From contig CP092079.1 of assembly GCA_022226955.1 (NCBI GenBank), positions 1,271,053 through 1,335,052 on the forward strand: a DNA stretch of 64,000 bases. The letters run 5' to 3'. A model generated the notes under the pieces. That model was not told where the DNA came from, searched no databases, and was given only the letters and a program-made list of their open reading frames with translations. Below are positions 14,695-36,688 of the stretch, one piece after another. The position numbers and the translations under genes were made by a program. Within the stretch, counting starts at the first letter, position 1; each line of letters starts with the position of its first letter. Source of the DNA: Nitrospira sp. Its GTDB lineage: Bacteria; Nitrospirota; Nitrospiria; Nitrospirales; Nitrospiraceae.

Positions 14695-14815
14695 GGGATG
14701 CTCAAAAAGCTTTCCCGCAAGGCCGCAACGAGTGAAGGACCGAGGCGTACCCTCTGGGGTACGTTGAGGGTCTGAACGATGTGAGAACGCAGCGGGGGAG
14801 ATTTTTCAGCATCCC
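14695..14815. repeat. REPIN-like palindromic element, copy A
   Basis: About 121 bases; outer stem GGGATGCT pairs with AGCATCCC, centre is GTACCCTCTGGGGTAC, and the shared core GCAAGGCCGCA and GAGAACG are present. It ends two bases before the stop codon of the HNH gene. Confidence 0.9.
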
Positions 14816-18824: not shown

Positions 18825-18945
18825 GGCTGTTCAAAACGGCCTTCCAGCAAGGCCGCAGCCGAGTCAAAACCGGAGGCGTACCCTCATGGGTACGTTGAGG
18901 ATTTTGACGAGGGGAGAACGAAGCTGGAGGCCATTTTCAACAGCC
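18825..18945. repeat. REPIN-like palindromic element, copy C
   Basis: About 121 bases; outer stem GGCTGTT/AACAGCC differs from copies A and B but remains paired. An inner stem GTCAAAACC/GGATTTTGAC and centre GTACCCTCATGGGTAC are visible. It ends one base before the stop codon of the alcohol dehydrogenase gene. Confidence 0.9.
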
Positions 18946-20289: not shown

Positions 20290-21219
20290 CTAGAATTTCA
20301 GCTCGCCCTCCACCACCATCACACACTCCCCTCCGACCTTCACGGCCTGAATCACGCCGTCCGACGAATCCACCTGGATGAGAATGCGCGAGGGCCGTTC
20401 GATCACATAGCCCTGCTCTGCAACAATCTCGGTTGTTGGCTTCACATCGATAATGCGGTGATGCACCAGATAGGCCCCCAGCGCCCCGCTGGCGCTGCCA
20501 GTGGCAGGATCTTCAAGAATGCCGATGGCCGGCGCAAACATGCGCGTATGAACGGTCGAGTCCGGCTCAACCGTGACGGTTGTGAAAACCATAATCCCGT
20601 TCGCGCCGAAGCGGCGGCACAGCTCGGTAATTGCAGAGGGATCTGGCCGGATCGACTGAACCGCGGTCAGCGTCCGGATCGGCAGAATCAAGACCGGCAA
20701 TCCCGTCGACACGACCTCAATCGGCGACTTGGCCTCGGCGACCGCATACTTCGGCAGCCCGAGCGAAAGGGCCAGCTTATAGAAATCTTTCTCATCCTCC
20801 ACCCGGTCGAGAAACTCCGGCTTGGGCTGCGACATGACCACATACTCAATCTGCATTCCCCCCCCATGCAACTCCACTGGAAACAAGCCGATGTTGCACT
20901 CGTAGAGCAGGCGGGTGACCGCACCGGTAAGGGGTATGCGCCCGAGCTGCGCCAGTAGATAAAACGTGCCGATCACCGGATGGCCGGCAAAGGGAATCTC
21001 CTGTGTCGGCGTGAAAATCCGCAACCGGACCACCGCCGCCGGATCGGTAGGTGGAAACACAAAGACCGTCTCGGAAAGATTCATTTCCCGGGCGACCTGC
21101 TGCAACTGGCCATCGGAAAGCCCGTCGGCATCGGGAAACACGGCGACAGGATTGCCGCCGAACGGCTCGGACGTAAACACATCGGCTTGATAGAACTTCA
21201 GCGAGCGGCGATCGGACAT
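20290..21219 (-). CDS. PhzF family isomerase/epimerase
   Basis: A 309-residue protein of the PhzF fold (DAP-epimerase-like). Motifs are the start KFYQADVFTSEPFGGNPVAV, SETVFVFPP (catalytic-type Glu), FTPTQEIPFAGHPVIGTFYLL and the C-terminal EDPATGSASGALGAYLV. The family isomerises small carboxylic acids; outside phenazine clusters the substrates are mostly unknown, and no phenazine genes lie here. It stands between palindromic elements D and E and is co-oriented with the neighbouring radical-SAM gene. Confidence 0.92.
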   Translation of the reverse strand: MSDRRSLKFYQADVFTSEPFGGNPVAVFPDADGLSDGQLQQVAREMNLSETVFVFPPTDPAAVVRLRIFTPTQEIPFAGHPVIGTFYLLAQLGRIPLTGAVTRLLYECNIGLFPVELHGGGMQIEYVVMSQPKPEFLDRVEDEKDFYKLALSLGLPKYAVAEAKSPIEVVSTGLPVLILPIRTLTAVQSIRPDPSAITELCRRFGANGIMVFTTVTVEPDSTVHTRMFAPAIGILEDPATGSASGALGAYLVHHRIIDVKPTTEIVAEQGYVIERPSRILIQVDSSDGVIQAVKVGGECVMVVEGELKF

Positions 21220-21381: not shown

Positions 21382-22620
21382 CTACGCAGGCCTCGGAATA
21401 GCCTCGTAAGCCTTCGCCATCGGATTGCGCAGATAACTCTCGATATAGTTCTGCAGTGAGCCATTGCGATACAGCTGCTCATTGGCGAAACGTGTATCGA
21501 CCCTGTGAAGCACTTTCACCTTCACACCGGTCTTTTCCGTAAACTGCTCCAGTGTCACACCGGTAATATCGCTGTACGGTCCGCGCCCCGATTGCATGAT
21601 GCACTTGGGCACATGGATCATCTTTTCCGTCGTGATCCGACGCGCAATATCGTCGAAGGTCAACAACACCGTGCAATCCGAATCACCGCTGAGCATCGCA
21701 TTCGGCACATAGAGGACTCGTGCCTTATTCTTCCGGTACATCGAGAGAATCTTCGACACACTCCAGCCCGTGACCAGCGTGTCCTTCTTTTCCAACTCAA
21801 GCGAATCGAAGAGACTGACAATCCGCTTCCGGCTGAGAAACGCCGTGATGTAGGCCTCCGTATGGATGGTCTGGAGGTTCGGCAAGGCGGCATCGTAGAT
21901 CCGCAGCGCTTCCTCCGCCAGATGCTTCCGGCCCTGCCGCATGAGACTCGCCGTCTCTTCCTTCAGGCCTCGCACCGGCGTGAGCGTGCCCATCCAGAGC
22001 ACGCACTTTTGATTGATCTTGGAAATGGCAATGGCGTCTTTCGACATCGTACCGGCATCGAAGGCATAAAAATTCGCCGAGGACACCGCCGGACCGTCCA
22101 GCACTTTCATCAGATGGGTGATCGAAGGCGCATGGGGCATGAGCCGCTTCCGGTAGTCGCTGAGCGTGATGACCGACAGCTCAAAATTGATCCGGCCCGG
22201 ATACTGCGAGACCAGTTGGTGGATCTTCGGCACATGCACAAAGCCGACGGTGAAGAACTGAATGCTCTTGTCCGTGTACTTGAGAAAGTCCTCAACCCAC
22301 TCCATCGCCTTCGGGTGGAGAAACAGATCGGTCCATTCCATAAACTCGTTGCCGCCCAGGCACCAGAACTGCTTCGGGTCCGTCGGTTTCTTGCTGATGT
22401 AGTCGAGGATAAATTTCCAATCCTCGTCGGTGGTCTTGGGGGGATCGAGCGTTTCGCGGTACGAGTGATCCAGCTCGTAGCAGAATTCGCACTTCACCGG
22501 GCAGTCGCGCCCGAGACTGAGCGGGATCTTCCCCGCGTCCATCTCACGGCGCAACACCTCACGATAATCCTGCCTGGCAAAGATCGGAGCGGCCTGGAGC
22601 ATCGGAATGAGAGTTGGCAT
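21382..22620 (-). CDS. Radical SAM protein of unknown function
   Basis: A 412-residue radical-SAM enzyme with the canonical cluster motif CPVKCEFC (Cx3Cx2C) near residue 40. It then has FWCLGGNEFMEWTD (a Gly-Gly-Asn-Glu SAM-binding-like motif), and further TIM-barrel-like stretches; no SPASM-like Cys cluster is seen at the C-terminus, where single Cys residues sit in DCTVLL and KCIMQSG. The family makes 5'-deoxyadenosyl radicals to modify substrates, unspecified here. The start is the first ATG, 22620. It lies near two B12-domain radical-SAM genes (23-27 kb), which suggests but does not prove joint use. Confidence 0.8.
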   Translation of the reverse strand: MPTLIPMLQAAPIFARQDYREVLRREMDAGKIPLSLGRDCPVKCEFCYELDHSYRETLDPPKTTDEDWKFILDYISKKPTDPKQFWCLGGNEFMEWTDLFLHPKAMEWVEDFLKYTDKSIQFFTVGFVHVPKIHQLVSQYPGRINFELSVITLSDYRKRLMPHAPSITHLMKVLDGPAVSSANFYAFDAGTMSKDAIAISKINQKCVLWMGTLTPVRGLKEETASLMRQGRKHLAEEALRIYDAALPNLQTIHTEAYITAFLSRKRIVSLFDSLELEKKDTLVTGWSVSKILSMYRKNKARVLYVPNAMLSGDSDCTVLLTFDDIARRITTEKMIHVPKCIMQSGRGPYSDITGVTLEQFTEKTGVKVKVLHRVDTRFANEQLYRNGSLQNYIESYLRNPMAKAYEAIPRPA

Positions 22621-22654
22621 TGATTGGCGACCTTGCTCCAGTTACAGTACTACG

Positions 22655-22930
22655 ATGAACGACGAAACAATTCCTGAAGAAATTACCCGCGCCCTAGAGA
22701 TTCTTGGGCTCACGCTCCCCGTCACCACCGAAGAGCTGGAACGGGCCAAACGCGTGCAACTCTATACCTGGAACCCAGCCCGCTATTCGAATCTAACGAA
22801 CAATCCCAAAGCCTACATGCAGGCCTACAAGAAGGCTGAAGAGATGACTAAGATGGTTGAAGCCGCTTATGCGCTCCTCACCGCCGTCCTCGTACCGGAT
22901 GAATCTTCGAGCGATCAGTCTTCTTCCTGA
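22655..22930 (+). CDS. Small J-domain-like protein lacking HPD
   Basis: A 91-residue protein with sequence TRALEILGLTLPVTTEELERAKR and a helix with EEMTKMVEAAYALLTAV, the helix II-III pattern of a DnaJ J domain. The HPD tripeptide that activates DnaK is replaced by WNPAR. It is divergently placed from the radical-SAM gene at 22620 with a 34-base gap, so the two promoters must overlap. Function unknown; a J-like fold without chaperone activity is one possibility. Confidence 0.6.
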   Translation: MNDETIPEEITRALEILGLTLPVTTEELERAKRVQLYTWNPARYSNLTNNPKAYMQAYKKAEEMTKMVEAAYALLTAVLVPDESSSDQSSS

Positions 22931-22944
22931 ACCGCCATCTCCCC

Positions 22945-23066
22945 AGGATGCTCAAAACGGCGTCCCACTAGGCCGCAAGCGAGTCAAAACCGGAGGCGTA
23001 CCCTCAGGGGTACGTTGAGGATTTTGACGAGCTGAGAACGACGTGGGAGGTCGTTTTGAGCATCCT
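22945..23066. repeat. REPIN-like palindromic element, copy F
   Basis: About 122 bases; outer stem AGGATGCTCAAAACG/CGTTTTGAGCATCCT is perfect over 15 pairs. Centre GTACCCTCAGGGGTAC. Ends one base before the stop codon of the B12-radical-SAM gene; the small J-like gene ends 14 bases before its start. Confidence 0.92.
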
Positions 23067-23067
23067 G

Positions 23068-25026
23068 TTAGCCGACACCGTGGGAGACCACACGTGACAT
23101 TCCCTCTTTCCCATCTTCGCCCTCGCCCATCGCCACCGGCCACGTGACCAGACCTGAGACGCTGTCTGAAGCCCCCACCGTTTGCTGCTTCGCATAAATC
23201 TGCGGCAGGTTGTTCGTGCCGAACTTGGAGATGTAGAGAAATACGTGCTCGCGGGAATTCACCCGCACCGCCCAGGGCTTGAAGTCATTCTTGTAGAACT
23301 CTTCGCAGAGCTGCATTGCGTCGAGACAGGAAATCCCCACCGGTTCGTTCAGCGTGTAGTAGTAGTCCAGCGGCAGGTCATACTCTTCTTGCTTGTGAAT
23401 CGTGATGCCGAACTTCTCCGGATTGCGCACCATCGGCGTGTGGCGATACGCCACGAAGTAGAACAGTTCCACCGAATGAATCACCGGCTGATTGTCGATG
23501 ACGAACTGCCGCGTCTCCAACGCTTCGTCGCGCGTTTCGCCGGGGAAGCCGTAGAAGGCCATCACGTGGTTCCAGATCCCCGCCTTCGACGCCTGGTGGA
23601 GATTGTTCTGGATCACGCTCTTCTTGGCGTGCTTGTCCATGAGGTTCAGCACGCGCTCGTTCGCCGACTCCATCCCGTAATAGAGCGTGCAACAGCCGGC
23701 CTTCGCCGCGAGATCCCACACGGCCTGGTCCTGTAGCGTTTCTTCAAAGCGGATGAGCGTCGTCCACTTGATGCCGGTCTGCTGATCCACCAGCATCTGC
23801 GACACTCGTTTGAACAGCGCGGGCGGATAGGATTCGTCGGAGAAGAGAAAGTGTGTACACTGATACTTATCCCGCAGCGCCGTCACCTGCTCGACAACAT
23901 GCTGCGCCGTCATGCCGCGGTATTGATCAAAGTAGCCCTGCCCGTGGTCGCAGAACGTGCAGCGGCCCCAGTAGCAGCCGCGCGTCGCGAGATAGGGAAT
24001 GATCCGTTCCGGCACAAAATAGTGATCCAGCGGCAGGCCTTCAAAATCAGGGAGCGGCAGCGCCGCCGTCTTCTCAGTATAGACTTCCTTGCTCTGCTTT
24101 ACCCCGTCGGCATGGCGATACATCAGATTCGGTACAGATTCCAACGCCCGCTGGCCGTTCAGCGCCTCGATATACCAGAGCAACGCATGTTCGCCTTCGT
24201 AGAGAATCGCCGCGTCGAACACCTCGGTGAAGAACCGCTCATGATGCGGCAGCTCTTCCTGCAAGCGCGTAATGACGTTGCCTCCGACCACCACCTTAAT
24301 GTGCGGGAACGTCTCCTTGATCATCTTGCAGAAGGTTAGCCCTGCCAGCAGCTGCATCTGTGTGCCAATGGAGATGCCGACCACCGTCGGCTTTTCTTTA
24401 CTGACCGAGGGCAGCACGAGCTGATTGCAGATGTCGCGATAGACATTCACCTGCTCGTCGTCGAGGCAGGCAAAGACTTCTTTGGAGACGCCCGGGCGAT
24501 AGCCCAGGTTGCTTTCCATCGGATAGAAGACCAGCGAGGCCGGATAGTAGGCGGCGGAAATATACTGCATCGCCTCGCGGAAGCAATTCAGCGCCAGCTC
24601 CAGCTTCTCGGCTGCATAGAACCGCTCGCCGCGCACAACAAGCTTCGCGTCTTCCGCACGCTCAGCTAAGTCGAACACATCGACCGCGTAGGCCTGCTCG
24701 ATCACCGCTTTCTGATCGGCCTCGCGCTCCGTGAGCGTGCCGGCCTTTTCTTTATCCTGAAGCGGCTTAAGCTGCATCCCCAACCGGGCTTTTACCCAGA
24801 TCAGGAACTCCATCGTGAAGAAGTGGTCGTACATCTCGATGTTGATGTCGCGCTGCACGACCTGATGCCCCGCTTCCCGCAACACGGCGGTGAGCGCAGG
24901 CAGCGCCAGATAGGGCGCCGTCGGCACCCACTCGGGCGGAAATAGCAGCATGACCTTCGACGTCTTCCGATCTTCTTTCTTGATCGGCGACAGCCCGTCT
25001 ATTTGGACAAGACCACTTGCGCTCAT
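23068..25026 (-). CDS. B12-binding-domain radical SAM protein, copy 1
   Basis: A 652-residue protein with an N-terminal B12-binding-like Rossmann domain (VMLLFPPEWVPTAPYLALP, then GISIGTQMQLLAG, about 20-330), a radical-SAM core from about 350 with the cluster loop CYWGRCTFC, which is spaced Cx4Cx2C rather than the usual Cx3Cx2C, and a C-terminal domain. The B12 lower-ligand motif DxHxxG is not seen; the equivalent place reads DINIEMYD. ATG 25026 has GGAGG. Class B radical-SAM methyltransferases are the nearest named group; substrate unknown. It is a paralogue of the gene at 25185 (compare LPALTAVLREAGH with LPSLTAVLRQAGH). Confidence 0.85.
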   Translation of the reverse strand: MSASGLVQIDGLSPIKKEDRKTSKVMLLFPPEWVPTAPYLALPALTAVLREAGHQVVQRDINIEMYDHFFTMEFLIWVKARLGMQLKPLQDKEKAGTLTEREADQKAVIEQAYAVDVFDLAERAEDAKLVVRGERFYAAEKLELALNCFREAMQYISAAYYPASLVFYPMESNLGYRPGVSKEVFACLDDEQVNVYRDICNQLVLPSVSKEKPTVVGISIGTQMQLLAGLTFCKMIKETFPHIKVVVGGNVITRLQEELPHHERFFTEVFDAAILYEGEHALLWYIEALNGQRALESVPNLMYRHADGVKQSKEVYTEKTAALPLPDFEGLPLDHYFVPERIIPYLATRGCYWGRCTFCDHGQGYFDQYRGMTAQHVVEQVTALRDKYQCTHFLFSDESYPPALFKRVSQMLVDQQTGIKWTTLIRFEETLQDQAVWDLAAKAGCCTLYYGMESANERVLNLMDKHAKKSVIQNNLHQASKAGIWNHVMAFYGFPGETRDEALETRQFVIDNQPVIHSVELFYFVAYRHTPMVRNPEKFGITIHKQEEYDLPLDYYYTLNEPVGISCLDAMQLCEEFYKNDFKPWAVRVNSREHVFLYISKFGTNNLPQIYAKQQTVGASDSVSGLVTWPVAMGEGEDGKEGMSRVVSHGVG

Positions 25027-25053
25027 AATCCTCCACCCGCGACTTCTATCATC

Positions 25054-25177
25054 AGGATGTTCAAAAAGGTCTTCAAGCAAGGCCGCAGACGACGAAAGCA
25101 CCGGAAGCGTACCCTCTGGGGTACGTTGAGGATGCTTTCAAGGCGAGAACGCCGCTGGGAGCCTTTTTCAACATCCT
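25054..25177. repeat. REPIN-like palindromic element, copy G
   Basis: About 124 bases; outer stem AGGATGTTCAAAAAGG/CCTTTTTCAACATCCT, core GCAAGGCCGCAG, centre GTACCCTCTGGGGTAC, ending seven bases before the stop codon of the second B12-radical-SAM gene. Confidence 0.92.
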
Positions 25178-25184
25178 GCACAAA

Positions 25185-27083
25185 TTACATCTTTCCAGCC
25201 AATGTAGGCGTATGCCCAGCAATCTTGGCGGCTTGATATTGCAGATCCCGCAATTTCTCCAACCCGAACTTCGCGATATAGAGAAAAATATATTCCCTGA
25301 TATACAGCCGCAAATCCCAGCCAGCGTAATGATTCTGCTCGAACTGCTGGAACACCCGCTCAGCCTCTTCGATGCTCAGCCCGCTCTTCACCGTGAAGTA
25401 GTAGTCGAGCGCCAGATCCCATTCAGGATTCTTGTACGCTGTCACGCCCCACTTCTCCGGATGCTTCGCCACCGGATTATGCCGACCAAGATCGAACGTG
25501 CCGAATCCCAGCGAATGGACATAGTCTTTGTTCTGCTCCAGGAATTCCACCGAGGACCAGGCTTCTTCCCGCGTCTCGCCGGGAAAGCCGAAAAAGCCCA
25601 TGCAGTGGTTCCAGATCCCAGCCTCCGCCGTGCGCTTGAGATGCTCAGTCATGATGGCGGTCGTCGTGGCCTTGTCCATCAGCTTCAACACCCGTTCGTT
25701 CCCCGACTCATAGCCGAAGTGGAGATACTTGCAGCCGGACTCCTTCGCATCCTGCCAGACTTGATCTTCCAGCAAGCTCTTCTCGAACCGCATATGCGTC
25801 GTCCAGGTAATGCCCATGCCGCTGTCGATCAAGCCGCGCGTCAGCTTGCGAAACAGCGCCGGCGGATAGGATTCGTCAGTGAAGTGAAAATGCTTCGCGC
25901 CATACTTGTCGCGCAGATGCCGGATCTCGCCTAGAATGTCCTGGATCTTCTTCGACCGGTAGCCCGCCGTATAGCCCTCGCCATGATCGCAGAACTCGCA
26001 GCGGCCCCAGTAGCAGCCGCGCGTCGCCAGATAGGGCAAGATCTTCGTCGGGACAAAATACTTCTCCAGCGGCAAGCCGTCGAAGTCCGGCGGCGGCAGC
26101 GCATGCATGTCTTCCGCAAAACTCGTCTCCGACGTATGGACCCCGGTGGCGTCCTTATAGATCGTGTTCGGCACCTCGGCCAAACTCCGCTTCGCCCCCA
26201 CCGCCGACACGAGCTGCACGAAGGCGGTTTCACCTTCATAGACTACCGCGCTGTCGAAGTACTGGAACAGTGGCGACTGCGGCAGCACATCGCGCAGGCG
26301 CGTCACCGTATTGCCGCCGATGGTGATGTGAATATGCGGGAAGTGCTGCTTGATGAGGGAACAGAAGGTCATGGTGGAGAACATCTGCTGCTGCAAGACA
26401 ATCGAAATACCGATTACATCCGGCTGTTCTGCCTCGATCGCCGGTTTCACCAGCTGCTCGAACACCTCACGATAGATATTCACCTGCGTATCGTTCACCG
26501 CGTCCATTACTTCGGACGAGACAAAGACTTTGTAGGACAGATCCGTCTCCATCGGAGGCATGCAGATCCGCGCCGGGGCATAGACCATGGAAATGACCGA
26601 CGTCACTTCACGGAATACTTGAATCGCCCACTCCAACTGATCGATTTCGTAGAACACTTCTCCGCGGATAATCGCCTTGGCCTTCTCCGCTTTCTTCGTC
26701 AATTCCTCAATCCGCTGCCGGGTCAGATCACAGAGCGCCAGCTGTAAATCCATCTCGTCGGCGCTGAGATCGCGCTTCTTGGAGAGCTTGCGGAGCCGGT
26801 CAAGCTGCTGCGGCACCCGGCGCAGGACTTTCTTCAGAAAATCCTCACTGAAGTACCAGTCCCACATTTCCAGGTTGATGTCCTTTTGGATGACCGTATG
26901 ACCGGCCTGACGAAGGACAGCGGTGAGGGAAGGAAGACTGAGATAGGGTTCGGACGGAAACCAATCCGGCGGGAAGATCAGCAGGACCTTCATCTTCCGG
27001 CCACTGGTGGCTTCAAACTTCTGACGATTCAGGAGAATCAGTTCTTTGGAAGCCCGCTCGCCCTTCGTATACTCAACACGCAT
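25185..27083 (-). CDS. B12-binding-domain radical SAM protein, copy 2
   Basis: A 632-residue paralogue of the previous gene. Same order: VLLIFPPDWFPSEPYLSLP, a B12-type domain with DINLEMWDWYF in place of DxHxxG, the cluster loop CYWGRCEFC with Cx4Cx2C spacing, followed by DHGEGY, and the KLMDKATT/FGFPGETREEA radical-SAM C-terminal motifs shared by both copies. The start ATG 27083 has GAGGAG eight bases upstream; an internal Met about 30 codons in (MKVLL...) is the alternative. No accessory genes such as a methyl acceptor or transporter lie nearby. Confidence 0.85.
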   Translation of the reverse strand: MRVEYTKGERASKELILLNRQKFEATSGRKMKVLLIFPPDWFPSEPYLSLPSLTAVLRQAGHTVIQKDINLEMWDWYFSEDFLKKVLRRVPQQLDRLRKLSKKRDLSADEMDLQLALCDLTRQRIEELTKKAEKAKAIIRGEVFYEIDQLEWAIQVFREVTSVISMVYAPARICMPPMETDLSYKVFVSSEVMDAVNDTQVNIYREVFEQLVKPAIEAEQPDVIGISIVLQQQMFSTMTFCSLIKQHFPHIHITIGGNTVTRLRDVLPQSPLFQYFDSAVVYEGETAFVQLVSAVGAKRSLAEVPNTIYKDATGVHTSETSFAEDMHALPPPDFDGLPLEKYFVPTKILPYLATRGCYWGRCEFCDHGEGYTAGYRSKKIQDILGEIRHLRDKYGAKHFHFTDESYPPALFRKLTRGLIDSGMGITWTTHMRFEKSLLEDQVWQDAKESGCKYLHFGYESGNERVLKLMDKATTTAIMTEHLKRTAEAGIWNHCMGFFGFPGETREEAWSSVEFLEQNKDYVHSLGFGTFDLGRHNPVAKHPEKWGVTAYKNPEWDLALDYYFTVKSGLSIEEAERVFQQFEQNHYAGWDLRLYIREYIFLYIAKFGLEKLRDLQYQAAKIAGHTPTLAGKM

Positions 27084-28737: not shown

Positions 28738-29470
28738 GGGGACATTCTACGTTTCCACAAGCTTCTGCGGCCTGCCGATGGACCGGAGACTGGCATCCAA
28801 CCCCAGCAACGCCGCGGTTACCACAGTCCAGGCTTCCGATCCAAACGGCGCGTTGCGATTCACGCTCTGTCGGATCCGCCACACCTCCGTCTCGTCCATC
28901 GCCCCGTTTACCCAATCGAGCCATGGTTCTGGACGTGCGACAGGGCCCACGTCCCCACGAAGGCCTTGCACGGACTCTTTCCACCTCTGCGCACTCGACC
29001 AGCGCCAGTCTTCGGCTCGTGTTACCAGATGCGCACGGACCGGATTCAGCTCGATATAGCGCAGCACGGTCAGGAGATGGTCGTCTTGCTCGATGGGAAA
29101 TGCTTTGAACCGGCCTTGCCAGATATGACCACTGGATTCGTGATAGGTGTGATACCGCCGCACGTGGGCAGTCAGCAGCCACTGCATCCATCGACTCAGA
29201 TCCCCATCGTGATACGGCCACAGCGCCAGATGAAAATGATTGGGCATCAGGCAATACGCCAGGATGCGCATCGGGATACGCTGCGATGCGTCACGCAGCA
29301 GCGTGATGAACGCCTGATAATCGCCATCCGCATGAAACACTTCGGCTCGGGCATTGCCCCGATTGATGACGTGATAGCAATAATCCCCCACTGACGCCCG
29401 CGCCGTCCTTGGCATACGCCCCTACCTCATGTCCACGATCTCACGCCGCTCGGAAATGGAGAATGTCCCC
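28738..29470 (-). mobile_element. RAYT transposable unit with 19-bp inverted ends
   Basis: The RAYT gene is bordered by imperfect inverted repeats: GGGGACATTCTACGTTTCC (28738-28756) and its partner at 29452-29470, reading GGGGACATTCTCCATTTCC on the other strand, 17 of 19 bases matching. The 733-bp block between the repeats has only the transposase gene. No target-site duplication was identified. Confidence 0.7.
28747..29415 (-). CDS. REP-associated tyrosine transposase (IS200-like, Y1)
   Basis: A 222-residue RAYT of the TnpA-Y1 (HUH) superfamily, which nicks palindromic single-stranded ends. It has the N-terminal CYHVINRGNARAEVF motif, the HUH pair in MPNHFHLALWP (His-Phe-His) near residue 65, and GHIWQGRFKAFPI followed by the catalytic Tyr region YIELNPVRAHLV. 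Normal length and no visible disruption, so it could be active. RAYTs are usually single-copy domesticated genes linked to REP/REPIN repeats, and this window has many such repeats. Confidence 0.88.
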   Translation of the reverse strand: MPRTARASVGDYCYHVINRGNARAEVFHADGDYQAFITLLRDASQRIPMRILAYCLMPNHFHLALWPYHDGDLSRWMQWLLTAHVRRYHTYHESSGHIWQGRFKAFPIEQDDHLLTVLRYIELNPVRAHLVTRAEDWRWSSAQRWKESVQGLRGDVGPVARPEPWLDWVNGAMDETEVWRIRQSVNRNAPFGSEAWTVVTAALLGLDASLRSIGRPQKLVET

Positions 29471-31105: not shown

Positions 31106-31318
31106 ATGCGATACCGAGTTGTGCTTGAACAAGATGAAGACGGAATCTATGTCGCCGAATGTCCCACCCTGCCAGGCTGCGTGAGTCAAGGCCATACACG
31201 CGATGAGGCCCTGACCAATATCAAAGATGCGATGGCGGGCTATCTTGAAAGCCTAACCCGCCATAACGAACCGATCCCCCCCTCGATCTGGGAGGAAACG
31301 GTGGATATCGCGCTGTGA
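31106..31318 (+). CDS. hicB: HicB-family antitoxin
   Basis: A 70-residue HicB-type protein beginning MRYRVVLEQDEDGIYVAECPTLPGC, with the family PxLPGCxSQG-like stretch and the GYLESL helix. It lacks an obvious C-terminal DNA-binding domain, so it resembles the short HicB form. GAGGAGG lies ten bases before ATG 31106. The hicA start codon overlaps its stop (GTGA). HicB proteins neutralise the HicA mRNA interferase by direct binding. Confidence 0.9.
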   Translation: MRYRVVLEQDEDGIYVAECPTLPGCVSQGHTRDEALTNIKDAMAGYLESLTRHNEPIPPSIWEETVDIAL

Positions 31319-31539
31319 GCAAATTGCCCGTCATCTCAGGGCACGATGCAGTCCGCGCTTTGAAGCAAATCGGGTATCTGGTTGACCATCAGACGGGCAG
31401 CCATCTGATTCTGAGACAGGTCCATCCTCCTCATCGACGCCTCACCATCCCGACTCACGCGGAACTGGCCAGGGGCACCCTCCGCAGCATTATCCGGCAG
31501 GCCGGCCTGACCGTGGACGAATTCCGCAGCTTACTCTAG
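31315..31539 (+). CDS. hicA: HicA-family mRNA interferase toxin
   Basis: A 74-residue HicA toxin, a dsRBD-like mRNA interferase that cuts mRNA. Landmarks are LPVISGHDAVRALKQIGY, the catalytic His in GSHLIL, and the C-terminal GTLRSIIRQAGLTVDEF. It starts with GTG, overlapping the hicB stop by four bases, giving tight coupling. The order antitoxin-first is seen in many but not all hic loci. Intact by sequence, so the locus could be functional. Confidence 0.9.
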   Translation: MSKLPVISGHDAVRALKQIGYLVDHQTGSHLILRQVHPPHRRLTIPTHAELARGTLRSIIRQAGLTVDEFRSLL

Positions 31540-31796: not shown

Positions 31797-32529
31797 AAAT
31801 GGTGTCAGGAACCATTGTTCACCAGACCCTTCCTTAGGCGACCTCGGCCTCGCATCGTCGCCCCTAAGTTCCATTGTGTCACCATCTGCTCCACCCAGCG
31901 CTCACTACCAAACGGTTGGCCTTTACTCACGCTCCGTCTGAGCGCGTCGATCTGCTCGCGTAATTCGTCCGTATTCACCCACTCGCCCCAGTCATCTGGC
32001 TTTGCGATCGGCCATTCATGCTCCCGAACACTTGGTGCGGTGCCCGCGCTGCTCCACCACCACTGCTCCGCTCGTTCAACCAGCCCTGCCCGTACCGGAT
32101 TACGTTCGACATACCGACAGACGGTCAACAAATACTCACTCGTCTCAACCGGAAACGATTTAAATCGTCCTTGATAGACATGCCCCTCACCCACCGTATG
32201 GCGATGCTGATGCCATCTTTGCGTGTGAGTCAGCGTGAGCCAGTTCATAAACCGGGAGAGGCCTCCATCCCGTCGCGGCCACACCACAAGATGCCAGCGA
32301 TTCGGCATAACACAGTACGCCAGGAGCCGCATCGACAGGCGGTCACACGCCTGAACCAGCACTCGTTCAAAGGCCGCATAGTCCCCGTCGTCTTCGAACA
32401 AGATCCGGCGCGCGTTGGCGCGATTCAAGACGTGATAGACGATCTCTGCCGTAGTCGCTACGTAACAGTCGTCCTATGCCCCCCCCTCAGTTCATGCCGC
32501 TATCCAAACAATGGTTCATGACACCTTTT
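31797..32529 (-). mobile_element. Second RAYT unit with 23-bp imperfect inverted ends
   Basis: AAATGGTGTCAGGAACCATTGTT at 31797-31819 is matched in inverse by 32507-32529 (AAAAGGTGTCATGAACCATTGTT on the other strand; 21 of 23 identical). The 733-bp interval holds only the degraded RAYT gene, whose stop codon lies inside the left repeat. The end sequence differs from that of the first unit. Confidence 0.65.
31805..32473 (-). pseudogene. Degraded RAYT gene (lost start, broken HUH)
   Basis: The reading frame encodes a RAYT: ...AEIVYHVLNRANARRILFEDDGDYAAF, MPNRWHLVVWP, VYQGRFKSFPV and YVERNPVRAGLV. Upstream the frame is stopped by TAG at 32474-32476 and no ATG, GTG or TTG occurs between it and a TTG at 32428, which would remove the conserved YHVLNR motif start. 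The HUH pair reads Arg-Trp-His, so the first histidine is missing. Both features suggest inactivation; a functional protein from TTG 32428 (207 residues) is the alternative. Confidence 0.7.
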
Positions 32530-32784: not shown

Positions 32785-34014
32785 TTACTGCCAACTGGCG
32801 GCAATCACAGCCTGCACATCCTGTGGCCGTTGATCGATCGCTTGATCCCACGTCAACCCACTCTGGCTGCTGAACGTCGCCATGGCCTGGATGAGCTGGT
32901 TTACCTGCATACTGAGCAAGGTCTGTCCATTCCCAGCCTGGATCGTCTCCGTCCGGTTCGCGGCGCTCGTGTACCAATTCTGGATAGTCACCGCATCCGC
33001 CGATCCGTGAATCGCGATACGCAAATTGTTGGCCTGGCGGCTGAGGACAAGATCCAGCGGGTTAATCGTGGCGCCGAATTGAGTGGTGTCGGCTGTCCCA
33101 TTGTTATCCTGAATGAGGTCTTGCCCATCGCCTCGGAAGAACTGGAAGGTGTCGTTTCCATTACCGCCACTAAGAATATCGTTGCCTTGCCCCCCTGCCA
33201 GGGTATCGCTGCCGCTGCCACCACTCAAGGTATTGGCCGCAGCATTGCCGGTCAGTACATTGGCCAAACTGTTGCCGGTTCCGTTAACGGCCCCTGCGCC
33301 GGTCAAGGTCAAGTTTTCAAAATTGGAACCCAGCGTCCAAGCCACCGAGCTTTGAATCGTATCGATCCCCGCGTTGGCATTTTCAACCACGGTATCGCCT
33401 GCACCGATCACATAGGTGTCATTCCCCGTCCCACCGGTTAACACGTTGGCGGCGCTGTTGCCGATTAACACGTTGTCGAGCGCGTTGCCTGTGCCATTGA
33501 TCGCACTCGCACCAGTGAGCGTAAGGTTTTCAATGTTACTCCCAAGCATATACGTCAGCGCGCTCTGCACGGTGTCTGTTCCTCCGCTGACTGATTCAAC
33601 CACCGTATCGCCAATCCCAACGACATAGGTATCGTTCCCAGCTCCGCCGGTTAAGACGTTGGCGGCGCCGTTGCCTGCCAACACATTATCCAGCGCATTC
33701 CCGGTTGCGTTGATGGCAGCCGAGCCAACCAGCGTCAGATTCTCGATATTTTCTCCCAAGACATACGTCACCGAAGCCTGAACCGTATCGATCCCCTCAT
33801 TCGCATTCTCCATCACCACGTCGCCCGCATTGTCGACCAGGTAGCCATCATCACCCAGACCACCACTCATTGTATCGATGCCCGCGCCACCATCAAGGAC
33901 ATTGGCGGCGCTATTTCCAGTGAGCACATTATTGAGGCCATTGCCAGTCGCATTGATCGCGCTGCTCCCCACAAGAATGAGATTTTCAACGTTGTCCCCC
34001 AATCCATACGTCAC
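32785..34014 (-). CDS. RTX/Ca-binding repeat protein, C-terminal fragment (after frameshift)
   Basis: About 409 residues, out of frame with the 33986-36688 gene but continuing its product. It has repeats of the type [16 protein letters not shown]... [17 protein letters not shown], i.e. M10-C/RTX-like glycine-aspartate repeats, then a C-terminal domain ([19 protein letters not shown], like hemolysin-related C-terminal domains) and ends at SWQ. The first visible residues [12 protein letters not shown] are mid-domain, so no genuine start exists here. Together with the N-terminal part this gives about 1300 residues. The product without the join would lack the presumed C-terminal secretion signal. 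Confidence 0.75.
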
Positions 34015-36688
34015 CGATGACTGAACCAGGTCGATTCCTTCGCTCCCCCCCCTCGCTCACTGCATCGCCAGCGTTATCGATAATGTAGCTGTCGTCTCCA
34101 GCCCCTCCCCACATCTGGTCCGCCCCTGCTCCGCCGTCAAGCGTGTCGTTGCCCTCTCGGCCATCAAGCAGGTTGTTCAAGCTATTTCCTATTACGATAT
34201 TATTTAGGCTATTGCCGATCCCGTCTGAGGCGAGCCCCAGGAGTGTGAGATTCTCGATATTAGCTCCCAGGGTGTAGCCGGCCAACACGCTCTGAACCGT
34301 ATCGCTCCCTTCGTTCACCTGCTCAACCACCACATCCCCAAGTTCACCCACAATATAGCTATCGTTGCCGGCACCACCCTGCATCGTATCGTGACCGAGT
34401 CCGCCATCGAGAATATTGTCACCCACGTTGCCGACAAGGGTATTGTCGCTGGCACTCCCGGTGGCATTGATGGCAGCCGAACCGGTTAGAACAATCGTTT
34501 CAACTTCCGCCTCGGGAGCCAGCGCATAACTTACCGACGCGCGAACGATATCATTCCCTTCGCCATAAACCTCGACGACTGCGTCCGATGCATCGTCGAC
34601 CAGATAGGTATCGTTGCCGGAGCCTCCCCACATCTGGTCCACCCCTGCTCCGCCATTGAGCATATCGTTGCCCTGCCCGCCATTGAGCGAGTCATCATCC
34701 GCCCCTCCCAGCAAAACATCATCGCCTTCATTCCCATTCAGATGATCGTTTCCACCCAAGCCTTGCAGGTAATTGGACGCATCACTTCCCCAAAGATAGT
34801 CAATTCCCTCAGTTCCTATCTGCGATTGCTGCACACGCGCTTGCATCGCCGCCGCATCCCAGACGGTTCCATCGGCAAACCGAATCTGTTCAATCGTATT
34901 GCCGATGACCATCTGGTCGTCCGACTGAGCCAGTCGCAACGTCAGCGCCCCATTACTCGTCACCCAGTCTTGCGTGATGAAGAGACTCGACGGCATCACC
35001 CCGTCCATGATCTGCACGGTATCGATCTCCGCAGGCTCCCATCCCCAGTCCTGTACCGTGTCCTGTCCGCTGCCTACTCCAAACAGATAGGTATCGCTGT
35101 CACCCCAATCCTGCATGGCGTCATTGCCCGCCCCGCCGTTGTACACATCGTTGCCGACACCCCCGGAGAGCTGATCGTTGCCCGCGCCGCCAAGCAGCGT
35201 ATCGATGCCCGCGCTCCCTTGGAGAAAGTCATCGCCTGCGCCACCATCGAGATAGTTGTTCGGCCAGCCCCCGGATAGATAGTCGTTGTTTGCAGTCCCT
35301 ATTTGCACTTGCTGCACGCGCGCTTGCATCGCTGCCGCATCCCACCGCGTCCCATCGGCAAACTGAATCTGTTCGATCGCACTACCACTCTGAATTACAA
35401 GTTGATCGTCCGATTGAGCCAATCGCAGCGTCAGCCCTCCAGGATTCGTTGCCCAGTCTTGCGTAACCAACAGGCTAGCCGGCGTCACCCCATTCATGAT
35501 CTGCACGGTATCAATGTCGGTCGGCCCCCACCCTCCATCCTGTACCGTGTCCTGCCCGCTGCCTGCTCCAAACAGATAGGTATCGCTACCGCCCCAATCC
35601 TGCAGAAGATCATTGCCCGCTCCGCCGTTGTACACATCGTTGCCAGCGCCCCCGGAGAGCTGATCGTTGCCCGCGCCGCCAAGCAGCGTATCGATGCCCG
35701 CGCTCCCTTGGAGAAAGTCATCGCCTGCGCCACCATCGAGATAGTTGTTCGGCCAGCCCCCGGATAGATAGTCACTGCTTGCGATCCCCATTTGCACTTG
35801 CTGCACGCGCGCTTGCATCGCTGCCGCATCCCACCGCGTCCCATCGGCAAACTGAATTTGCTCGATACTGTTACCGATAACCATCTGGTCGTCCGACTGA
35901 GCCAGTCGCAACGTCAGCGCCCCACTACTCGTCATCCAGTCTTGCGTGATCAGCAGATTGGTCGATGCAACTGCACTGCTGACCTGGACGGTATCGATCT
36001 CCGCAGGCTCCCATCCCCAGTCCTGTACCGTGTCCTGTCCGCTGCCTACTCCAAACAGATAGGTATCGCTACCCCCGGCATCTTGCATGACATCATTACC
36101 AACGCCGCCGTTGTATGTATCATCTCCCCATCCACCCAAGAGCTGATCGTTACCGCTTCCACCAAGCAGCGCGTCATTTCCGTCATACCCATTCAATGTG
36201 TCATCGCCTTGGAGCCCCTGCATATAATCGCCAACTTGAGTGCCATACAGAAAATCATTCGATTGATTTCCCACTATCAGCGGACCCGAATGTGCCTGAA
36301 TCGCCGCCGCATCCCAGACGGTTCCATCGGCAAACCGAATCTGTTCAATTGTATTGCCGATGACCATCTGGTCGTCCGACTGAGCCAGTCGCAACGTCAA
36401 CGCCCCATTGTTCGTCGCCCAGTCTTGGATGATGAACAGACTGGCTGGCATCACCCCGTTCGTGATCTGCACGGTATCGATGTCGGCCGGCTCCCATCCC
36501 CAGTCCTGTACCGTGTCCTGCCCGCTACCTACTCCAAACAGATAGGTATCGCTGCCGCCCCAATCCTGCATGACATCATTGCCCGCCCCGCCGTTGTACA
36601 CATCGTTGCCATAGTCCCCAGCCATATAGTCGTTACTGGGAGTCCCATTAAGGACGTCATCGTTCGGAGTTCCATAGATATCAGCCAT
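33986..36688 (-). CDS. RTX/Ca-binding repeat protein, N-terminal part
   Basis: 900 residues with no signal peptide, as for type I secreted proteins. It is built of at least four ~163-residue modules: RTX nonapeptides ([23 protein letters not shown]), then [32 protein letters not shown] and [11 protein letters not shown], which is the hemolysin-type calcium-binding related domain. It then runs into M10-C-like repeats. ATG 36688 follows GGGAGG. The frame ends early in [10 protein letters not shown], caused by the G8 tract at 34045-34052. Inferred as a secreted or cell-surface protein, perhaps an adhesin; no type I transporter genes are in this window. Confidence 0.82.
34045..34052 (-). other. 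G8 homopolymer (C8 on +) responsible for the RTX frameshift
   Basis: Eight consecutive C bases on the + strand (G on the coding strand). With seven G the product reads ...[16 protein letters not shown] and continues in the downstream frame; with eight it ends soon after. Either a slippage-type genetic switch or a sequencing error. Confidence 0.85.
35138..35775 (-). repeat. Near-identical 489-bp direct repeats in the RTX gene
   Basis: Two stretches of about 145-150 bases, at about 35138-35285 and 35627-35775, are nearly identical and 489 bases (163 codons) apart. Related but more diverged copies occur at about 34918 and 36372. They lie in the N-terminal modules of the RTX gene. Confidence 0.8.

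Follow-up and report, generated by a model that had tools for sequence, protein, structure and literature searches.

A and B, two adjacent genes in a 64,000-nt window of the Nitrospira sp. genome (contig CP092079.1, positions 1,271,053 to 1,335,052, part of a complete 3.64-Mb chromosome), are probably ancient paralogues from an uncharacterised, Nitrospirales-specific branch of class-1 cobalamin radical S-adenosylmethionine (SAM) enzymes, most likely C-methyltransferases. A third open reading frame (ORF) nearby, C, encodes a radical-SAM protein that is likely of another class, and a further paralogue, N, which is 34% identical to A, is encoded in the same genome (C1:2674883; L161:7878-9671). 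The three radical-SAM ORFs of the window were found where the original prediction, made from the sequence alone, had placed them, all on the minus strand (Table 1). The literature searched gave no description of A, B, C or N.

The two proteins are 45% identical across 603 aa, and both exceed the gathering cut-offs of the Pfam families B12-binding and Radical_SAM (42.8 and 62.6 bits for A, respectively), which bears out the original prediction that they are B12-domain radical-SAM paralogues. An N-terminal B12-type Rossmann domain is fused to a radical-SAM core, as judged by Pfam in both proteins and by the predicted fold in A, and the three-cysteine cluster motif is present as a Cx4Cx2C variant, not as strict Cx3Cx2C. 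The DxHxxG motif is missing from A and B, as had been noticed beforehand; this is usual for the group, as cobalamin radical-SAM enzymes bind cobalamin base-off with no His ligand and lack the motif as a rule (PMC13331322). The NCBIfam models nearest to A and B are nearly all cobalamin radical-SAM families: PhpK, the C-methyltransferase of ribosomally synthesised and post-translationally modified peptides (RiPPs), ApyD, BchE and MgmA. The best model for B is PhpK (TIGR04479; 145.8 bits, with 129.1 for A) and the best for A is the RiPP maturation C-methyltransferase (TIGR03975; 130.8 bits, with 111.1 for B); membership in these families was rejected, as their cut-offs lie at 600 and 281.85 bits, and so was membership in the MgmA family (TIGR04014; 62.2 bits for A and 44.0 for B against a cut-off of 360).

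A structure model of A, built from a 36-row alignment (pLDDT 78.5, pTM 0.83), is closest to OxsB (Z 21.0), TsrM (21.0), AprD4 (20.1), MgmA (19.7), CysS (19.2) and TokK (17.6), with matches that span about 370-431 residues. Residues S227 and G256-G257 are invariant, and S227 aligns with S184 of OxsB, where a Ser/Thr is expected near the cobalamin base after strand 3. The published text prints this base-contacting residue as Ser84; as the cobalt-facing residue is given as Asn186, we read it as S184. With a Ser/Thr near the base and no axial His, A and B appear to have the features of class 1. At the position aligned to Asn186, A has Val229, B has Gly and N has Thr, with each residue almost fixed in its group; because the three differ where a residue is expected under the cobalt, the paralogues likely differ in cobalamin handling, a comparison made by alignment rather than from a cobalamin-bound structure. 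By family resemblance, A and B would bind cobalamin and transfer methyl groups, and cobalamin-dependent radical C-methylation is the chemistry that we consider probable for both. In the N-terminal Rossmann domain, SAM would methylate bound cob(I)alamin, and a second SAM on the [4Fe-4S] cluster bound by Cx4Cx2C would yield a 5'-deoxyadenosyl radical; this would abstract hydrogen from an unactivated carbon of the substrate, and the substrate radical would pick up the methyl group from methylcobalamin.

A search of 198 Nitrospirota genomes at a cut-off of 1e-60 returned matches in 56 Nitrospirales genomes and in one distant genome (G104), and none in nine other genomes of the class; at comparable similarity, A and B did not turn up beyond the order. 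A occurs in 55 of these Nitrospirales genomes and B, intact, in 54; one metagenome-assembled genome (MAG) of 230 contigs, G018, is without both, and B of G108 is shortened to about its first 80-109 residues. In all other Nitrospirales loci A and B adjoin unless the contig ends, so the pair stays together throughout the order, which supports this part of the original prediction, and the objection that the two might occur independently fails. A and B are reciprocally monophyletic (A clade 99/99, B clade 100/100) and sisters (98/99), therefore the duplication is older than the split of the two families of the order, f1 and f2. It would have preceded the order's radiation, with both genes retained side by side as two non-redundant enzymes (Val in A versus Gly in B). 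The gene order A-B-J-(C)-PhzF-zinc dehydrogenase-CBS-MoaB-ferredoxin-GGCT, in which J is a small conserved protein, is kept over much of the order; given its mixed strands and housekeeping neighbours, the block is not read as a single operon. In four MAGs of complete ammonia oxidisers (comammox; G133, G108, G191 and G195, loci L084, L095, L104 and L221) B is truncated, interrupted or partly duplicated and A is intact wherever readable, which could be decay or misassembly.

The cluster loop reads RGCYWGRC[ET]FC in A and B; it is fixed across 93 A orthologues and takes the form RGCYWG[RK]CTFC in 88 B orthologues. The original prediction was right in describing a CYWGRCxFC loop with Cx4Cx2C spacing, and wrong in calling that spacing unusual and a sign of a special system. 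Four-residue gaps are seen in N (RGCYYKDCAFC), in another relative from the same genome (HGCYWKQCTFC), in plasmid relatives from Rhizobium, Sinorhizobium, Parabacteroides, Ideonella, Vitreoscilla and Aureibacter, and in OxsB as aligned (RGCDYSRCTFC), and GenD1 has been described with Cx4Cx2C (PMC4340712). The spacing is common to most of the distant relatives checked, and it was rejected as a distinguishing mark; RGCYWGRCEFC also aligns to the canonical loop of a relative in G062, RGCY-GTCEFC, by a one-residue insertion, an outcome that the original prediction had named as weakening its idea of a special system. The RiPP enzyme checked for loop spacing has Cx7Cx2C.

C is likely a divergent DUF512-type (Mmp10-class) cobalamin radical-SAM enzyme. 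Its orthologues match Radical_SAM in 21 of 21 cases and DUF512 in 16 of 21, the latter under the gathering cut-off (best E 8.7e-4), and C of the window scores 11.7 bits against PF04459, for which the cut-off is 25 bits. By hhalign, its residues 276-372 align to DUF512 radical-SAM proteins of the phylum (prob 81.5, E 1.1e-5) that are relatives of the solved csDUF512 (9cg1), and DUF512 is a cobalamin-binding domain common to Mmp10 (PMC11659888). Y48, after the third Cys, and L319 are invariant and correspond, by alignment only, to csDUF512 F95, which sits between cluster and cobalamin, and L366, which sits under the cobalt; T284, aligned to the Thr that contacts dimethylbenzimidazole, is Met in many orthologues. 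The structure model of C has a mean pLDDT of 51, and a profile search of the PDB gave chance matches only. Profile comparison ruled out C as a paralogue of A and B (prob 1.5). The original view of C as unrelated to the pair therefore stands, with the amendment that C, too, probably uses cobalamin, as an enzyme of another class. C would be a separate enzyme of the same block, missing from comammox members.

Among 175 Nitrospiraceae genomes, C was found in 76 and amoB in 69, with no genome holding both and 30 holding neither; every one of the 69 amoB-positive (comammox) genomes lacks C, and 76 of the 106 others carry it (Fisher p = 5e-25, descent ignored). On a tree of A and B, in which two rows (G105 and G165) are unstable, the rows lacking C require three changes, two of them forced by well-supported branches, and one clade holds 16 of the 18; two amoB-negative rows without C (G175 and G191) nest within the comammox clade. 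A tree of A only requires five changes, partly since the truncated loci L220 and L221 supplied B instead of A. Many independent losses of C in comammox were ruled out, as the tree of A and B gives one to three events. The absence of C is a clean marker of the comammox clade, resulting from one to three evolutionary events, and is no proof of a functional link.

N is present in 55 of the 56 Nitrospirales genomes, the exception being G179, and A, B and N would form a three-member set in nearly every sampled nitrite-oxidising member of the order. In the five loci read, drawn from both families, N is preceded by genes for a 4Fe-4S ferredoxin, a TorD/nitrate-reductase-delta protein and an EB_dh (NxrC-type) protein, and downstream of it lie a second EB_dh gene and multihaem cytochromes. 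These loci match the cluster NITMOv2_3614-3631, proposed as diagnostic of nitrite oxidation, whose nxrC_2 and TorD-like genes are highly transcribed (PMC12342949; PMC6606698); the main texts of these two papers hold no discussion of a radical-SAM gene in it. The nitrite-oxidation machinery would be the best-motivated place to seek the substrate. The three paralogues, together with C in canonical nitrite oxidisers, might C-methylate subunits of nitrite oxidoreductase (NXR) or its partner cytochromes. The NxrC/TorD (gamma-subunit and chaperone) cluster around N is the sole functional context found, the model of A is near MgmA, nearly every sampled genome of the order carries A, B and N, and C, by its Mmp10/DUF512 domain, would bring about a pairing of class-1 and class-2 enzymes like that known near mcr genes (PMC5943407). 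Against this, neither A nor B lies close to nxr genes, comammox Nitrospira lack C and still oxidise nitrite, and the literature searched yielded no modified residue in NXR. Moreover, other Nitrospirota have NXR-like alpha subunits (37-41% identity) and no A-, B- or N-grade genes, therefore such enzymes are no general need of that molybdoenzyme family. (TIGR03479 was rejected as a proxy for NXR, as it matches other type-II molybdoenzymes and missed this genome at its cut-off.) On balance, a protein-modifying set of this kind is unlikely, and we regard as doubtful the full proposal that N, A and B, with C in canonical nitrite oxidisers, install C-methylations on NXR or its electron-transfer partners and would be, by analogy, the aerobic equivalent of what Mmp10 and MgmA do to methyl-coenzyme M reductase (MCR), one member having been dropped towards comammox.

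Besides the NXR-like alpha subunits, several points weigh against A and B being a Nitrospirales-specific pair of methyltransferases. Structure prediction, which gave A the cobalamin radical-SAM fold, left the cluster loop at low confidence (pLDDT below 50 for residues 362-373). "Nitrospirales-specific" refers to a comparison among Nitrospirota genomes, with plasmids added for the distant relatives, and the order-wide presence of A and B is confounded by common descent. AprD4 has the fold yet is no methyltransferase, and OxsB is a non-methylating member; the fold is therefore no proof of methylation or of cobalamin use. A and B could share it and catalyse instead an OxsB-type rearrangement, a BchE-type cyclisation or an AprD4-type dehydration, which we consider a serious rival, though rather unlikely: OxsB and AprD4 are among the nearest folds and the residue under the cobalt is unlike that of OxsB, TsrM and TokK, but the top NCBIfam models, PhpK and the RiPP C-methyltransferase, are methyltransferases.

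If A and B do C-methylate, their substrate need not be a protein; small molecules are the substrates of most class-1 cobalamin radical-SAM enzymes that have been characterised. The original prediction had the two enzymes modify one substrate in sequence, such as a lipid or cofactor, and this is one among several candidate substrate classes; that A and B act, perhaps in sequence, on one lipid, cofactor or metabolite may be entertained tentatively. The two are adjacent and non-redundant, and genes for a PhzF isomerase and a zinc dehydrogenase are conserved neighbours; however, there is no biosynthetic gene cluster, the CBS, MoaB-type, ferredoxin, GGCT, Rieske and HNH neighbours look like general synteny, and A and B fall far below the cut-offs of the NCBIfam models for the lipid and cofactor enzymes HpnJ, HpnR, BzaD and ladder-B12. 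A role in RiPP maturation, with a short precursor peptide modified by A and B or with J as substrate or partner, is highly improbable. TIGR03975 is the top model for A and J is the only small protein retained beside the pair, but the score is under the cut-off, no precursor peptide gene or conserved precursor-like ORF was found beside A and B, the spacing of the RiPP enzyme checked differs, and J lies on the opposite strand with a structured J-like core instead of a leader/core form. The weights given here to the protein, small-molecule and RiPP substrates overlap with the question of chemistry and are not required to sum to one.

Almost every locus has J beside the A/B pair, whether C is present or not. 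The start of J at 22655 is more likely than 22607, where the ORF opens and overlaps C. The original description of a J-like protein adjoining the pair is partly upheld: the core W-x-P-x-R-Y-A-N-LTNNP-x-x-YM holds a degenerate W-x-P-x-R-Y in place of HPD, which hints at a J-like protein, but a Pfam search found neither a J domain nor any other family. The repeat between A and B, which the original prediction had noted as separating the pair, belongs to an unrelated intergenic family of about 112 nt dispersed over about 40 places in the chromosome, with further copies in the window at 14703-14814 and 18834-18945, and was ruled out as a component of the system. For B, the later of the two starts is more likely: its orthologues mostly begin near M-S-A/S-S-G-L, and the 25 residues that the GTG start would add overlap with the repeat. 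Elsewhere in the window, IS200-like/REP-associated transposase genes lie at 28747-29415 and 31805-32428, two small adjoining ORFs at 31106-31539 resemble a HicB/HicA toxin-antitoxin pair by eye, and large ORFs with RTX-type calcium-binding repeats and an internal repeat of about 483 nt occupy 32785-36688; the two long ORFs overlap in different frames, and the gene may be frameshifted.

Table 1. Features of the A/B locus, in window coordinates.
Feature	Coordinates	Strand	Basis
A, cobalamin-type (class 1) radical-SAM enzyme, 632 aa (predicted)	25185..27083	-	Pfam, model fold
A cluster loop, C357-YWGR-C362-EF-C365 (Cx4Cx2C)	25989..26015	-	Invariant among A orthologues
B, paralogue of A; 677 aa from GTG at 25101, probably 652 aa from ATG at 25026	23068..25101	-	45% identity to A, Pfam, orthologue starts
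B cluster loop, C376-YWGR-C381-TF-C384	23950..23976	-	
C, 412 aa, radical-SAM protein with Cx3Cx2C (CPVKCEFCY) and a divergent C-terminal domain of DUF512 type	21382..22620	-	
C residues 276-372, aligned to cobalamin-binding DUF512 domain	21505..21795	-	hhalign
C cluster loop, C40-PVK-C44-EF-C47, then aromatic Y48	22480..22503	-	Invariant alignment columns
J, small conserved protein, 91 aa, degenerate J-domain-like, between B and C, divergently oriented from C	22655..22930	+	
Dispersed repeat copy (~112 nt) between A and B	25065..25176		
Repeat of the same family, downstream of B	22954..23065		
PhzF-family isomerase, conserved neighbour (no functional link to A/B demonstrated)	20290..21219	-	

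Among nitrite oxidisers Nitrospira are a major group, and no function is known for many genes that are diagnostic of this lifestyle (PMC12342949). The presence of oxygen-sensitive B12 radical enzymes in nearly all sampled members of an aerobic order points to an indispensable chemical step. As N lies beside an NXR gamma-subunit gene, modification of NXR or a partner becomes a direct question for mass spectrometry, and the absence of C from comammox provides a genomic marker with a testable cause.

In comparing A and B with known systems, the N-terminal B12 fold and radical-SAM core are shared with PhpK and the RiPP C-methyltransferases; A and B differ in having no phosphinate or RiPP gene cluster, and the cluster loop of the RiPP members is longer. 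OxsB, TsrM, TokK and CysS resemble A and B in fold over about 400-430 residues (Z 17-21), in the base-off binding predicted for the pair and in the lack of DxHxxG, with OxsB also sharing the Cx4Cx2C loop; identity is 13-18%, and at the position expected under the cobalt they have Asn, Arg or Trp instead of the Val, Gly or Thr of A, B and N. Mmp10 (class 2) and MgmA (class 1) C-methylate residues of MCR. MgmA, the MCR glutamine C-methyltransferase, is like A and B a class-1 enzyme, and one that acts on a protein; unlike them, it has a canonical-length loop, its substrate belongs to methanogens, and A scores far under its family cut-off. C differs from Mmp10 and the DUF512 proteins in falling under the DUF512 gathering cut-off, in having no PDZ domain and in its unconserved base-contact Thr, and resembles them in its Cx3Cx2C motif followed by an aromatic residue, its C-terminal DUF512-like domain and the aligned Leu of the lower face.

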